The notes below the pieces were generated by a model. The model saw only the letters and a list, made by a program, of their open reading frames with translations. It was not told the DNA's origin and made no database searches. A DNA stretch of 64,000 nt from Auricularia sp. M13. Taxonomy: Eukaryota > Basidiomycota > Agaricomycetes > Auriculariales > Auriculariaceae. The first letter of the stretch is position 1; each line of letters opens with the position of its first letter. Made by a program: the position numbers and the translations under genes. Positions 4,509-10,646 of the stretch are shown one piece after another. The DNA lies in NCBI GenBank assembly GCA_037042915.1, contig CM073198.1:2170001-2234000 (forward strand). Direction: 5' to 3'.

Positions 4509-6468
4509 CTACCGCCTTGGCATGCCACCACGACCACGACCGCGAAGTGCACGTTGAGCCGCACCAGGAGGCGCCTTCGGACCAGGCTGCGGCTAAGGAG
4601 CAAACAAGTCAGACCTGAGTATTTGCAGAAGGCCTCGGTGCACATACCGGTTCACTCTGCGGGTTGCGCACGGTCTCGTCAACACTCAGAATGAGGGCGG
4701 CGGCCTCGGCGGCGGAGCTGATGGCGTTGATCTTGACGAGACTGGGCTCCCAGACGAACGCCTCCATGTTGTCGCGCCAGCCCTCGGGGCCATCGACGTC
4801 GACGCCCGCCCAGAGACCGTCCTTCTGGCTGTGGCGCATGCGCAGCTTGTTCAGCACGTCCGTCGCGTCCAGCCCAGCGTTGTCGCAGATTTGACGCGGG
4901 ATGATCTCCAGCGCCTTCGCGAACGCGTACAGCACCAGTTGCTGCTTTCCCGGAATCTCGAGGCCCTTGGCGCGGATGTACGCGGACAGGTCCATCTACG
5001 ACCGGGATATTGTATTAGATGAATGAAACTGGAACAGGATGAAAGTGCACGGACCTCGATGGCGCCGCCGCCTGCAACGACTTCGCTGCTCTTGATCGCG
5101 CGCTTGACAATCATAATGGCATCGTGCAAGCTGCGCTCAACCTCCTCGATGAACTGCTCCGCCCCTCCGCGCAGGATGAGTGTGCACGTCTTTGCCTTGG
5201 GGCAGCCCTCGAAGAGATTATACCGCTCGCCGCCGATCTGCCTCTCGTTGAAGCGCGCGCATGTGCCGAGATGCTGGCGCTTGATGTCCGAGCACGTCGA
5301 CTGGATAGATCCGCCGACGGCCTGCACGACGCGCTTGAGGTCCTGCGCGGGGACGCGGCCCGCGCAGAAGATGTCACGGTCGGCAAACCACTGCGTCGCG
5401 AGGTCTCCGATGGGCAGCTTGCTCAGCACGACCTTTGCGCCCGTCTTCGCGATCGCGTCGAGCTTGCGGAAGATGATCTCCCACTCGGCGTCGACGACGG
5501 CCTGGTACTCGGACACCTGCTCAACGCGCACCTCGGCGTTGTCCTTCTCGGCTTTGAGCTCGAGCTCGACATTCAGGCAAAGGATGAGCGGGTCCGTAAA
5601 CGTTTTGGGCTGTTGCTCCGCGCCCGCATACGTGAAGGTCTTTTTGAACGCGACGCCCTTGACCAGGAGGCTGTCCTGCATCCCGCCACCGGGGATTTTT
5701 TTCACGCCGATGAGGTTTTCGTCGAGATCGTTTTGGTCGAGGCAGAGGACGGCATCGACGACCATATTGGAGAAGAACGGCTTTTGGCCGTGGATGAGTT
5801 TCGAGGACATGGATGTCGATGCACACTTGAGCAGCAGGGAACGGAATTTCCTGGAAGGAATGTCAGCAGGACGCGATCGAGGCAAAGCACCAGTGCGCAC
5901 TCTGGGTCAGACTTGTCCACAGACACTTGCACTTCGCGAATGCGCTCCAATGCCTTTGGGAGTCTTAGTAACTCAATAAAAATAGGGAATATCCTGGTGC
6001 TCACGAGTTGGGAGGCTTTGCGGAAACCTTTGATGATAATATGCGGCGAAAGACCCTCCTCGATGTAGCCGCGTACTTCTTTGAGCATCTGGGCGGCCAG
6101 CAGCACAACAGAGGTCGTGCCGTCGCCGACCTCGGCATCTTGAGCACGGGCAATGTCGACCAGCGTCTTTGCGGCGGGGTGTACGATCTCGAGCAGCTTG
6201 AGAATGGTCGCGCCGTCGTTCGTGATCTGGGCGTCGCCGCGGTCGTTGACAATGAGCTTGTCCATTCCACGCGGGCCCAGCGTCGACGCGAGCGTCTCTG
6301 CGATGGCGATGCATGCGCCGATGTTGGAGAGCAGCTGGCCCTTGCCCTGCGAGGTGTCGGTGCCCTCGCGGAGCAGCAGCACCGTGGGTTGCTGGGCGCA
6401 GACAACGGTGAGCACGAGTGTATGCACCGGCGGCTTAGACTGCTCACCATTGGGAGTCCACGCTGCAT
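4509..6468 (-). CDS. CCT7: T-complex protein 1 subunit eta (CCT7)
   Basis: This is one of eight subunits of the cytosolic TRiC/CCT chaperonin that folds actin, tubulin and WD40 proteins. Exon 1 (start 6468) encodes only MQRGLPM. After an intron the protein continues [19 protein letters not shown], the eta-specific N-terminus. Chaperonin signatures follow in order: [20 protein letters not shown], the ATP-site motif [10 protein letters not shown], and [10 protein letters not shown]. The last exon sits beyond an intron ending near 4593 and encodes a Gly/Arg tail ([11 protein letters not shown], stop 4509-4511), which matches the RGRG-type tail known for eta subunits. The TDTSQGKG N-terminus and this tail separate it from the other CCT subunits. 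It is transcribed divergently from RAD5 with 84 bp between start codons. Confidence 0.95.
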
Positions 6469-6552
6469 GGTTGCGGGTGAAAGCAGAGACAGACGCGTTC
6501 TACGACATTGGCACTCCGCCGCACGCGTTCTCCAGCGCACCCTTGGGAGCGG
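6469..6552. promoter_or_regulatory. 84 bp bidirectional promoter between CCT7 and RAD5
   Basis: The ATG of CCT7 (6468, minus) and that of RAD5 (6553, plus) lie 84 bp apart, so both core promoters and 5' leaders must share this stretch. No TATA box is visible. An in-frame upstream ATG for RAD5 at 6508 lies inside it and would add 15 residues. Confidence 0.6.
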
Positions 6553-9500
6553 ATGGCCTCCTTCTTCGACACGCTGCTCGACGAGGACGCCCCTCAGACG
6601 CAGCAGCGCTCGTCGTCGCCGCTGTTTCTGGCGGACTCGGACAACGACGACGACGGCAACGACGCGCGCTCAAAGGCCTCTTCTGCCACATCCAGCAGCG
6701 CCCCGCTCTTCCTGCCTGCCAGCGACGACGAGGACGAAATTAACAGCAGCAGCATCTACCAGCCGTCGTCGCCGCCCCCGCAGCTCCCACGCGCTAAGCA
6801 GGCGCGCCGCTTAGAACCGTCGGCGACGGAGGCTGCCCCGCCACCAGCCAAGAAGCGACGCGTCTCGCCCTCGCCAACGCCAGTGAAGGAAGAGAAGCCT
6901 CCGGAACGCGCATATATTGGCGAGTTCTACGTCGAAGACGCGTACAGTCTCTGTTCTGGCAAGGGCTACATGAAGAACGGCGAGGAGATCGTCATCGAGC
7001 GCGACGTCCCCGCGCCAACCAAAGGCAAGCCCGTGCAGACGAAGCTAAACTTTGGGGCGCCGGTCAAGAAACCGAAAGCGAAGCCGAAAGGCACCATTAT
7101 ACGCTTCAACAACGCGCGCGGCTTCGAGCTCGGACGCTTGCCGGACAGCGTCGCGTCTTGGGCTGCCAAACTCCTCGACCAACGCGTCAGTACGCGTCAA
7201 TATCTAACTTCAGCCTCCACTGACTTTGCTGTAGTTGATTTACATGACGGGCAATATTGTAGACGCACCAGCCGTCGTACGCACAGGCGTCGACATTGTC
7301 CTCCGACTTCGCGTCTACTTGCTTCCTGCCGCATTTGACAAGCTCAAGACGGTGTCTACGGTATCAGCAAAGCAGATTATTGATGAAGGCCATGAAATGC
7401 CCGAAGAGGAATTACTGCGCGAGCGCAAGACAGCGCTTGCGGCGCTATTCCAACGCGTCGGCTTGGAGCCAAAAACCCGCAAACCACGTGTTACGGTGAA
7501 CGGCGACCAACCTGGGGATGGCGCTGCGCGCAAGATGGAGACAATTGGCGAAGGCGAGGATGCAGAGGAAGTCGAGGCGGAGGGTGAGGAACTTAACGAG
7601 AACGACCTCCGGATCATCTACAACAAGTGGGCCTGTTTGAATCTATCTGCATATATCCATCTCAAACTCGGAATTCAGGGCTCAGAGTGGCGATCAGAGG
7701 CTCGGAACCATGGAGCCTGCAGCAACCTTCTCGCTCACGTTGAGGAACTATCAGAAACAAGCTCTCAAGTTCGTTGTGACCAGAGCGCATATATTCTGCG
7801 TCATGACCTCTTTCGCAGTTGGATGTATTCCATCGAGTGTGGTACGGACGAGGCCCGCCAAAGCAACTCCATCCATCCGCTGTGGGACGAGTTGAGTGGC
7901 TTTCAAACCAAGCAGTCGAAATCGCATTCTGAAGGACCAAAGATACGCATTCCCCCATGACACTGCTGAGGGAGGCGACAGCATGGTGTTAGACCTGACG
8001 GAGGACGAGAAGCCCTTTTATTTCAACTCGTACTCGGGCGAACTCAGTCTCTCATTCCCCAAGGCGGAACGCAAATGTCGAGGCGGTATTCTCGCGTACG
8101 TGCCATAGATGCCACGCATTGACGATACTGACCCCATTTGCAGAGATGGTATTTCTCGCCCCAACCAAGGCCATGTCAGTGACTAATTTGTTATAGAAAT
8201 GGGGATGGGCAAGACGATCATGATCTCTTCGCTCATCCACAGCAACAGCGAGCCTGACATAACACCCGCCGAACCTACGTCCACCGCTCCCAAGAAGAAA
8301 CAACAAAGACTGGAGCTCGCCTTCAAGAAGCAGAAAAAGGACGTCGACCGCGGCGCCTACGCGACGCTCATCGTGGCGCCGACGTCGCTTTTGGACCAGT
8401 GGGCGCGCGAACTGGAACGCAGTTCGCGCCCGGGGTCGATTAAAGTAACGGTATGGCACGGCGCGAACCGCGCGGACCTCGATGCGCTTGCTCGTAGAGC
8501 CGGCAAGGGGAAAGACGACACGATTGAAGTCGTTGTAACCAGCTACGGCGTCCTGGCGTCCGAGCATGCCAGGATGAATGACAATTACACGCCGCCGGTG
8601 TTTGCAGGTACGACACCCGTCGTTCGCCCGCGTTTCTCATTGTGGTGCTGATGAGCGTGGACTGGGAAGTGGATTGGCTGCGCGTCGTGCTCGACGAGGC
8701 GCACAACTGCAAGTCACGCCTCAGCAAGACCGCGAAAGCCGTCTACGCCCTCAAGGCGCGGCGGCGATGGGCCCTCACTGGCACACCAATTGTCAACCGC
8801 CTGGAGGATTTGTACTCGCTCCTGTGAGTTGGCCTTCTTGTGTTAGAAGGCCCTAGCTGACACATGCCTCATCAGCAAATTCCTGCAGTACGAACCCTGG
8901 TCCGAGTTTTCATTTTTCCGCAGGCATGTTACGACAACGGCGTGACAGTGCGTTTTGCGTCTAACGCGGGCTTCCACCTTGCAGTTTCATCAGTGTGCCG
9001 TTCGTCGCGCACGACCCGAAGGCGTTGGAAATCGTACAGGTCATCCTCGAGAGTTGTCTGCTTCGCCGCGAGAAGAATATGAAGGACGCCGATGGCAAGC
9101 CGATTGTGGACCTGCCTCCGAAAGAGGTCTGCGTTTGTGCCTCCAGGTGTCGTCAGCGTTCTGATTACACGGATGCAGGTGAAGGTCGAGCGCCTAGTGT
9201 TCTCGCCTGCCGAGCGCAAGGTCTACGACCTGCTGTACAAGAACGCCAAGCAGACGTTCAACGACCTGAACGCGCACAACCTCGTCGGCAAGAACTATTC
9301 GATGATCCTGGCTAAGCTCATGATGTGCGTAACGCCTCTCCCGTGTTGCGACTTCGCACTGAGCCATTTCCGCACACACAGTTTGCGGCGAGCCGTGTTG
9401 CACCCGAGCTTTGTGACCGGCAAGGATGTGGTGCTGAAGAGCGAAGATACTGGCGAGGACGTCGATATGGACGCTTTTGCTAGCAACGCCGTTCAAGACA

Positions 9501-10646
9501 TCGAGAACATCAGCAAGAGTGAATGTCCGTTCTGCTTCGACGTCATGGAGAACCCCGTGCTATTGCCCAACTGCAAACACAGTTGGTGCGCCGTTTGCCT
9601 GGATCTTGTTGGGGCGATCTACTCATTTTCATGCGGCCGCAGCTGCAAGGACTGCATTCTTGGCTGGTTGCTTACGTGTCAGACCAAGGGCGAGGAAGGC
9701 GTCTGCCCGGTTTGCCGACGAGGGCCAGTGAAGGTACGGCATGCGCTAAATGTCGAACGGCGGTTTTCACGTCATTTATTTGATGCAGGAGGAAGAACTT
9801 CTCGACGTCGTGCAGAACGAAAACGCCGAACTCGTGTTGCGCAAGAACGACTTCCAGTCCTCGACAAAGCTCGACGCCTTGCTCGTCAGCCTTCGTGCGT
9901 TTGCCCATCACAAGCGATGGAAGATAATCACTGACCATTCGTAGGTAAATTACGCGAACAGGACTCGACCTTCCGCGCAGTTGTGTTCTCGCAGTTCACG
10001 AGGTTCGTGAAGTCGTGGGAAGCGATAGTGTAAGCGTCACACAGCTCTGATCTGCCGCGGAGCAGCTTCTTGGACCTGATCGAGATCGCGCTCGAGCGCG
10101 ACGGTTTCCCGTCGTATCGTTTTGACGGCACGCTCAACATCAAGAAACGCGCGGGCGTCATTGAAGAGTTCAAGAAGTCGAGCTCGAAGCCGAAGGTCCT
10201 GGCGATCAGCTTGAAAGCGGGTGGTGTTGGATTAAATGTGCGTCGGAGATCGCAATTAATATCTGTCTAACCTCCAGGCTAGTTGACGAATGCTCAACAT
10301 GTTTTCATGGTAGGTTACCGCTCACATCTCGCTCTGTTCTGACTGTTGCCTCCGCAGATGGATTGCTGGTGGAATGCCAGCGTAGAACAGCAAGCAATAG
10401 ACCGAGTACATCGTATTGGACAAGACAAACCCGTATATGTTACACACTTCATTGTGAGCACGCGTCTCATGATACCTTTGCCCGTGGCGGGATTGATGAG
10501 GTGCGTGGCAGATTGAACAGACAATCGAGGAGCGCGTGCTGCAGATTCAGCGGCGCAAGACAGCTATCATCAAAGGCGCGTTGAACAAAGGAAAAGAGGA
10601 CGAGTCGGACAGTATGGAGAATCTCAAGATCATGTTCGGGGATTGA
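6553..10646 (+). CDS. RAD5: DNA repair helicase / E3 ubiquitin ligase Rad5 (HLTF orthologue)
   Basis: Rad5 polyubiquitinates PCNA and remodels stalled replication forks in error-free damage tolerance. After an acidic, disordered N-terminus comes a HIRAN domain ([20 protein letters not shown], about residue 120). The SNF2 ATPase follows: LRNYQKQAL, a Walker A segment GGILADEMGMGKT assembled across a 5-nt exon, motif II as DEAH ([19 protein letters not shown]), and [12 protein letters not shown]3HC4 RING is inserted between helicase lobes ([20 protein letters not shown], then [10 protein letters not shown]). Lobe 2 has [17 protein letters not shown] and [12 protein letters not shown]. The order HIRAN, SNF2, RING, helicase C is diagnostic. 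More than ten introns of about 45-60 nt are needed, including flanks of a 27-nt exon (10283-10309). One junction near 7890-7930 could not be resolved. An earlier in-frame ATG lies at 6508. Confidence 0.93.

Follow-up and report, generated by a model that had tools for sequence, protein, structure and literature searches.

Very small exons are already known as a kind, and the closest described systems come from fungi and plants. P450 genes of the CYP621A type in Fusarium contain an exon of 1 nt that completes a conserved protein motif and was found through reading-frame logic, with RNA reads and 20 orthologues behind it (PMC12940212). In the white-rot basidiomycete Phanerochaete chrysosporium, whose genes often have small introns (45-55 bp), the micro-exons of P450 genes encode 2-10 amino acids, the shortest exon given being 6 bp (2 amino acids) (PMC1184071). 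Plant micro-exons of at most 15 nt include exons of 1 nt and an RT-PCR-validated exon of 5 nt in rice; they are conserved across species, backed by RNA and often absent from annotations (PMC8831610). The filamentous fungus Trichoderma virens has a micro-exon in Xlr2 that is alternatively included and regulatory (PMC11121469). Further, stwintrons, in which two introns in immediate succession are removed by consecutive splicing reactions, have been described in fungi (PMC12403724; PMC6616335).

To this group the RAD5 gene of Auricularia sp. M13 adds a member. Within the stretch of 64,000 nt analysed here (the window), this gene very probably carries a coding exon of 5 nt, AGATG, which completes part of the ATP-binding site. 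Like the Fusarium exon, it is a tiny exon in a fungal gene that restores a conserved motif and is revealed by reading-frame logic, whereas the Fusarium exon has a single nucleotide and belongs to an ascomycete P450. The plant micro-exons match it in size and coding role; however, both they and the Fusarium exon have RNA support and conservation in other species or orthologues behind them, whereas the RAD5 exon is read from genomic sequence. Phanerochaete chrysosporium offers a similar setting of small introns and micro-exons, but in another gene family and with exons of at least two amino acids. Unlike Xlr2, RAD5 has no hint of regulation in its sequence, and unlike a stwintron, which leaves nothing behind, the RAD5 stretch must keep 5 nt. 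At the level of sequence the locus offers a clear example of a 5-nt exon that splits codons within a catalytic motif, in a fungus whose introns are short. Gene finders could be tested on it, as could the order in which neighbouring introns are spliced. Neither a RAD5 micro-exon nor a hotspot of introns at the same motif (see below) appeared among the matches listed from openly licensed literature, a scope that makes this weak evidence of absence. The hotspot might be the new part, although its statistics are only suggestive.

The assembly from which the window was taken comprises 52 Mb in 14 contigs. The gene was spliced by hand, without internal stops, into the model summarized in Table 1. 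It is RAD5, as the original prediction had named it. The closest PDB structure for the protein is Rad5 6l8n (E 8.5e-138), with the runner-up at E 6.9e-43, and Pfam domains fall in the order HIRAN (residues 124-236), SNF2-rel_dom (366-758), RING finger (about 796-842) and Helicase_C (882-989). A HIRAN domain and an SNF2 ATPase with a RING placed before Helicase_C is the arrangement that we take to be typical of the Rad5 helicase/ubiquitin ligase; the 6l8n structure is presumably that of K. lactis.

Table 1. Features of the RAD5 gene around the 5-nt exon (positions in the window).
Feature	Position	Strand	Description
RAD5 gene	6553..10646	+	begins at apparent start codon; encodes 1044 aa in 19 exons separated by 18 introns (45-63 nt)
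Exon 5	7943..8095	+	ends ...CGAGGCGGTATTCTCGC (R-G-G-I-L-A), phase 2
Intron 5	8096..8143	+	48 nt; GTACGT...TTTGCAG; CTGAC at 8128-8132
Exon 6 (micro-exon)	8144..8148	+	5 nt, AGATG; completes Ala (third base), spells Asp and opens Glu (first base)
Intron 6	8149..8196	+	48 nt; GTATTT...TTATAG; CTAAT at 8183-8187
Exon 7	8197..8607	+	starts AA ATG GGG ATG GGC AAG ACG (E-M-G-M-G-K-T)
Exon 17	10283..10309	+	second small exon, 27 nt, from gene model

The coordinates and letters originally given for both introns and for AGATG agree with the window sequence. Between GGTATTCTCGC (G-I-L-A) and AAATGGGGATGGGCAAGACG (E-M-G-M-G-K-T) lie 101 nt, made up of intron 5, AGATG and intron 6 in immediate succession, and no unspliced frame is readable across 8030-8230. 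Splicing in this interval was enumerated with GT or GC donors and AG acceptors, allowing one intron or two, none shorter than 25 nt, and keeping the ATG at 8199 in frame. Stop-free readings in frame numbered 5 when one intron was removed and 38 when two were. Only one of these yields GGILADEMGMGKT, namely AGATG (8144-8148) between the two 48-nt introns, and it aligns without gaps with GGILADEMGLGKT of Rad5 6l8n. Its score against the Rad5 segment, 73, is as high as the self score; the second-best reading (61) requires a GC donor and inserts Tyr-Val, and the top score with one intron is 46. The prediction that the conserved SNF2 segment can be read only through a 5-nt exon is thus borne out among the enumerated readings, this being the sole one that preserves motif I. 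Reading across the junctions gives GC+A, GAT and G+AA, that is, Ala-Asp-Glu, again as foreseen. The exon contributes the Asp that opens motif I, the last base of the Ala codon and the first of the Glu codon; the GxGKT loop is encoded entirely by exon 7. At the DNA level the exon has the form TTTGCAG/AGATG/GTATTT and fits a coding micro-exon (defined as at most 30 nt) in that the AG acceptor and the GT donor belong to two separate introns and both the frame and the conserved residues depend on it. If it is skipped, the frame shifts, as had been claimed, to ...GGILANGDGQ...RA*, with a stop at the 20th codon past the Ala codon, inside the ATPase. Retention of intron 5 would bring a stop at codon 451, and retention of intron 6 a stop at codon 461.

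The same exon was recovered by a spliced aligner, which matches a protein profile to DNA and allows GT/GC-AG introns of 38-130 nt. Seeded with a single paralogue (L045), it returned a 5-nt exon at 8144-8148, by a margin of only 3 units (150.4 against 147.3 for the best reading without the micro-exon). An SNF2 family profile built without RAD5 recovered the exon too, and masking either of its splice sites then cost 35 or 31 half-bits. The aligner is not infallible, since in this RAD5-free run one other intron of the gene was put at 8564-8607 instead of 8608-8669, in a variable stretch. The rate at which such a reading arises by chance was estimated from 101-mers on both strands of the window that do not overlap 8096-8196, with introns of at least 38 nt. 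A residue-exact 5-nt reading was found in 63 of 127,398 (about 5e-4), equivalent to some three separate sites because neighbouring 101-mers overlap, and in none of the 422 that start with GT and end with AG. Shuffling 8096-8196 gave it in 147 of 400,000 cases. When residues are ignored, a frame-restoring, stop-free micro-exon can be read in 7,822 of 40,000 random 101-mers; thus the frame argument is weak, and it is the match in residues that carries weight, and strongly so.

The splice sites were compared with 90 training introns, comprising the 16 other RAD5 introns and 74 paralogue introns of 40-75 nt placed by the aligner. Intron 5 ranks at the 74th percentile for its donor and the 79th for its acceptor, and intron 6 at the 21st and 97th, respectively, so that three of the four sites stand at or above the 74th percentile. 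Of the two donors that of intron 5 ranks higher, and of the two acceptors that of intron 6. GTATTT, the donor of intron 6, is rather weak; 18% of plus-strand GTs in the window score equally well. Training introns have a median length of 52 nt, and 7 of the 90 measure 48 nt. A CTRAY motif near the 3' end is present once in each of introns 5 and 6, and 34 of the 90 training introns are alike in this respect. A tandem duplication of introns 5 and 6 was also considered and rejected: ungapped identity is 14/48, and their global score of 1.5 lies below the mean of 2.46 for intron 5 against the training introns (53 of 90 of which reach 1.5), so no such duplication is visible.

Three other explanations of the 101 nt were weighed against a 5-nt exon. 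Removal of 8096-8196 as a whole, either as a single 101-nt intron or as a nested twin intron of the stwintron type, would leave no micro-exon. The stretch does resemble a twin intron in its GT at the start, its AG at the end and a further AG and GT inside, and fungi are a group from which such units have been reported (PMC12403724; PMC6616335). However, removing all 101 nt leaves the flanking exons out of frame and leads into the stop of the skip product, and GILADE survives intact in none of the five in-frame readings with one intron; the best of those with GT-AG ends (8086-8196) lacks G-I-L-A-D. The stretch therefore does not behave as a stwintron, and we regard its complete removal as highly improbable. 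A micro-exon of varied inclusion, acting as an on-off switch for RAD5 by way of a frameshifted transcript prone to decay, deserves slightly more credence but is still very unlikely. Skipping would make an effective off switch, given the early stop inside the ATPase; the intron 6 donor is somewhat weak; and a micro-exon switch has been claimed in a fungus for Trichoderma Xlr2 (PMC11121469). Against this, nothing in the sequence points to regulation, and a splicing machinery that pairs sites across introns should, when it errs, leave introns in rather than skip exons (PMC2397502). Small exons are, moreover, not special in this genome, because aligner models of 22 SNF2 genes hold 19 exons of at most 30 nt, of which 14 are of 20-30 nt.

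That the locus is a decaying copy or an assembly error, with the 5-nt reading a coincidence, is the least probable of the three. Chance alone does produce residue-exact readings, at a rate of about 5 per 10,000 101-mers, but the whole protein of 1044 residues is open, conserved motifs flank the stretch on both sides, the splice sites at both of its ends score as ordinary, and a 501-base query spanning it has one match in the genome assembly. We therefore favour, with high though not complete confidence, a constitutive coding exon of 5 nt between two ordinary 48-nt spliceosomal introns, which would be spliced by intron definition and have arisen separately.

A cross-kingdom survey extends intron definition to basidiomycetes and, for splice sites paired across introns, expects errors to take the form of intron retention rather than exon skipping (PMC2397502). 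Under this scheme introns 5 and 6 would each be recognized across itself, and the 5-nt exon would need no exon-bridging complex. The suggestion that the micro-exon challenges exon-definition models was accordingly not upheld, since both introns are of ordinary length and recognizable across themselves in a group of fungi placed under intron definition (PMC2397502). The two excisions would presumably take place in succession: with just 5 nt between them, the intron 5 acceptor and the intron 6 donor would hardly be occupied simultaneously. After the first excision, the intron still in place would have normal sites.

An exon of this size is not very surprising in so intron-rich a gene. When 18 introns are placed uniformly in 3,132 coding nt, an exon of at most 5 nt arises in 42% of trials, and uniform placement over the 22 SNF2 genes predicts about five such exons. 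The aligner models contain three, and only that of RAD5 has introns of normal length on both sides; the other two, of 1 nt (L051) and 3 nt (L054), are likely artefacts, lying beside introns of 115 and 130 nt. Very small exons are thus to be expected because intron density is high, and in SNF2 genes the tiniest are, if anything, rarer than random. The RAD5 micro-exon is best accounted for by two neighbouring intron positions in a region where introns are plentiful. Judging from the paralogues of this one genome, the two positions would have arisen separately in the SNF2 core, rather than as the borders of a regulated cassette. Pattern matches in viral and prokaryote sequence (2 in viral_contigs and 17 in genome_contigs) encoded no relative of RAD5.

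The paralogues were collected by a genome search with PF00176, whose 55 matches fall into 30 stretches (RAD5 and L045-L073); the list is possibly incomplete, since the search scores the best candidates only. Names given to paralogues, such as MOT1, ISWI, RAD16, RAD54 and FUN30, are tentative assignments from motif wording. Eight stretches were dropped, either as near-identical copies (L053, L059) or as low-scoring or degenerate (L055, L068, L070-L073), leaving 22 genes. Motif I was read by eye in many stretches and by the aligner in all, and the positions are those of the aligner models. Its nine codons (ADEMGLGKT) are interrupted in 14 of the 22 genes, by 16 introns at 12 different positions, and are uninterrupted in the other eight. 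Counted in nt after the start of the Ala codon, the introns lie at 2 and 7 in RAD5, 2 and 24 in L066, 3 in L050, 7 in L045, 8 in L063, 9 in L051, 11 in L062, 12 in L046, 13 in L058, 18 in L057, 19 in L061 and L065, 20 in L047 and 24 in L048. Intron 5 of RAD5 thus coincides exactly with an intron of L066, presumably a Rad5/16-like gene, and intron 6 with that of L045, which we take to be MOT1-like. Among the dropped stretches, L059 shares the motif-I intron of its twin L058, an intron of L073 falls right on the border of the 27-nt window, and the remaining six are uninterrupted there.

No other 27-nt window of the SNF2 core in this genome holds as many introns as motif I, which has 16 against about 5.3 expected if the 101 introns were spread evenly over 534 profile nt (uniform placement being the null). 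The best non-overlapping window holds 10, motif II 7 and motif III 4. For the 22 genes the excess has P 5e-5 if the window is taken as fixed and 0.013 after correction for choosing the best one. The count was repeated without RAD5, because that gene had prompted the look, and then gave 14 introns where 5.1 were expected (P 0.00035 for the fixed and 0.059 for the best window); with introns restricted to at most 75 nt it gave 14 against 4.26 (P 0.00015 and 0.009, respectively). With RAD5-free best-window values of 0.059 and 0.009, the evidence from intron density is suggestive, not strong. Proto-splice sites of the form AG/G were considered as a cause and rejected: none of the 16 motif-I introns lies in AG/G and 5 lie in G/G, as against 2 and 8, respectively, of 67 introns outside the motif. 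Basidiomycete amylase introns are likewise reported to show little sequence preference (PMC3584928).

This density bears on the question of whether introns come to lie in conserved motifs at random, by inheritance or because such positions are favoured. The codons of motif I could be a genuine hotspot for spliceosomal introns, with the 5-nt exon of RAD5 and a 22-nt exon of L066 as its by-products, but we put this forward tentatively and think it rather less probable than its opposite. A bold reading would add that introns at the ATP site are favoured since a splicing failure there gives a dead rather than a partly active enzyme.

Several smaller observations concern the same family. In L066 (G000:C8:88400-91800), positions 368-389 form the 22-nt exon TGATGACATGGGATTGGGCAAG, which covers nearly all of motif I and lies between introns of 54 and 53 nt; the donor hexamer of the first of these, GTACGT, is identical to that of RAD5 intron 5. 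The aligner models of L062 and L063 (G000:C9) have four and three exons of 21-30 nt, respectively. L055, L070, L071, L072 and L073 are partial or broken SNF2 stretches distributed over C8, C6 and C3 that resemble one gene (compare L056), presumably CHD-like, and look as if copies of it had spread and then decayed.

Elsewhere in RAD5, intron 9 (window 8924-8984) was read as a GC-AG intron, CAG/GCATGT...TTGCAG. On the minus strand, at about 6038-6553 of the window, lies a chaperonin gene of the TCP-1/cpn60 type (Pfam PF00118), which we take to encode the eta subunit, in head-to-head orientation with RAD5. The apparent start codons of the two genes, that of the chaperonin being read by eye, are 84 nt apart, so a promoter region may be common to both.
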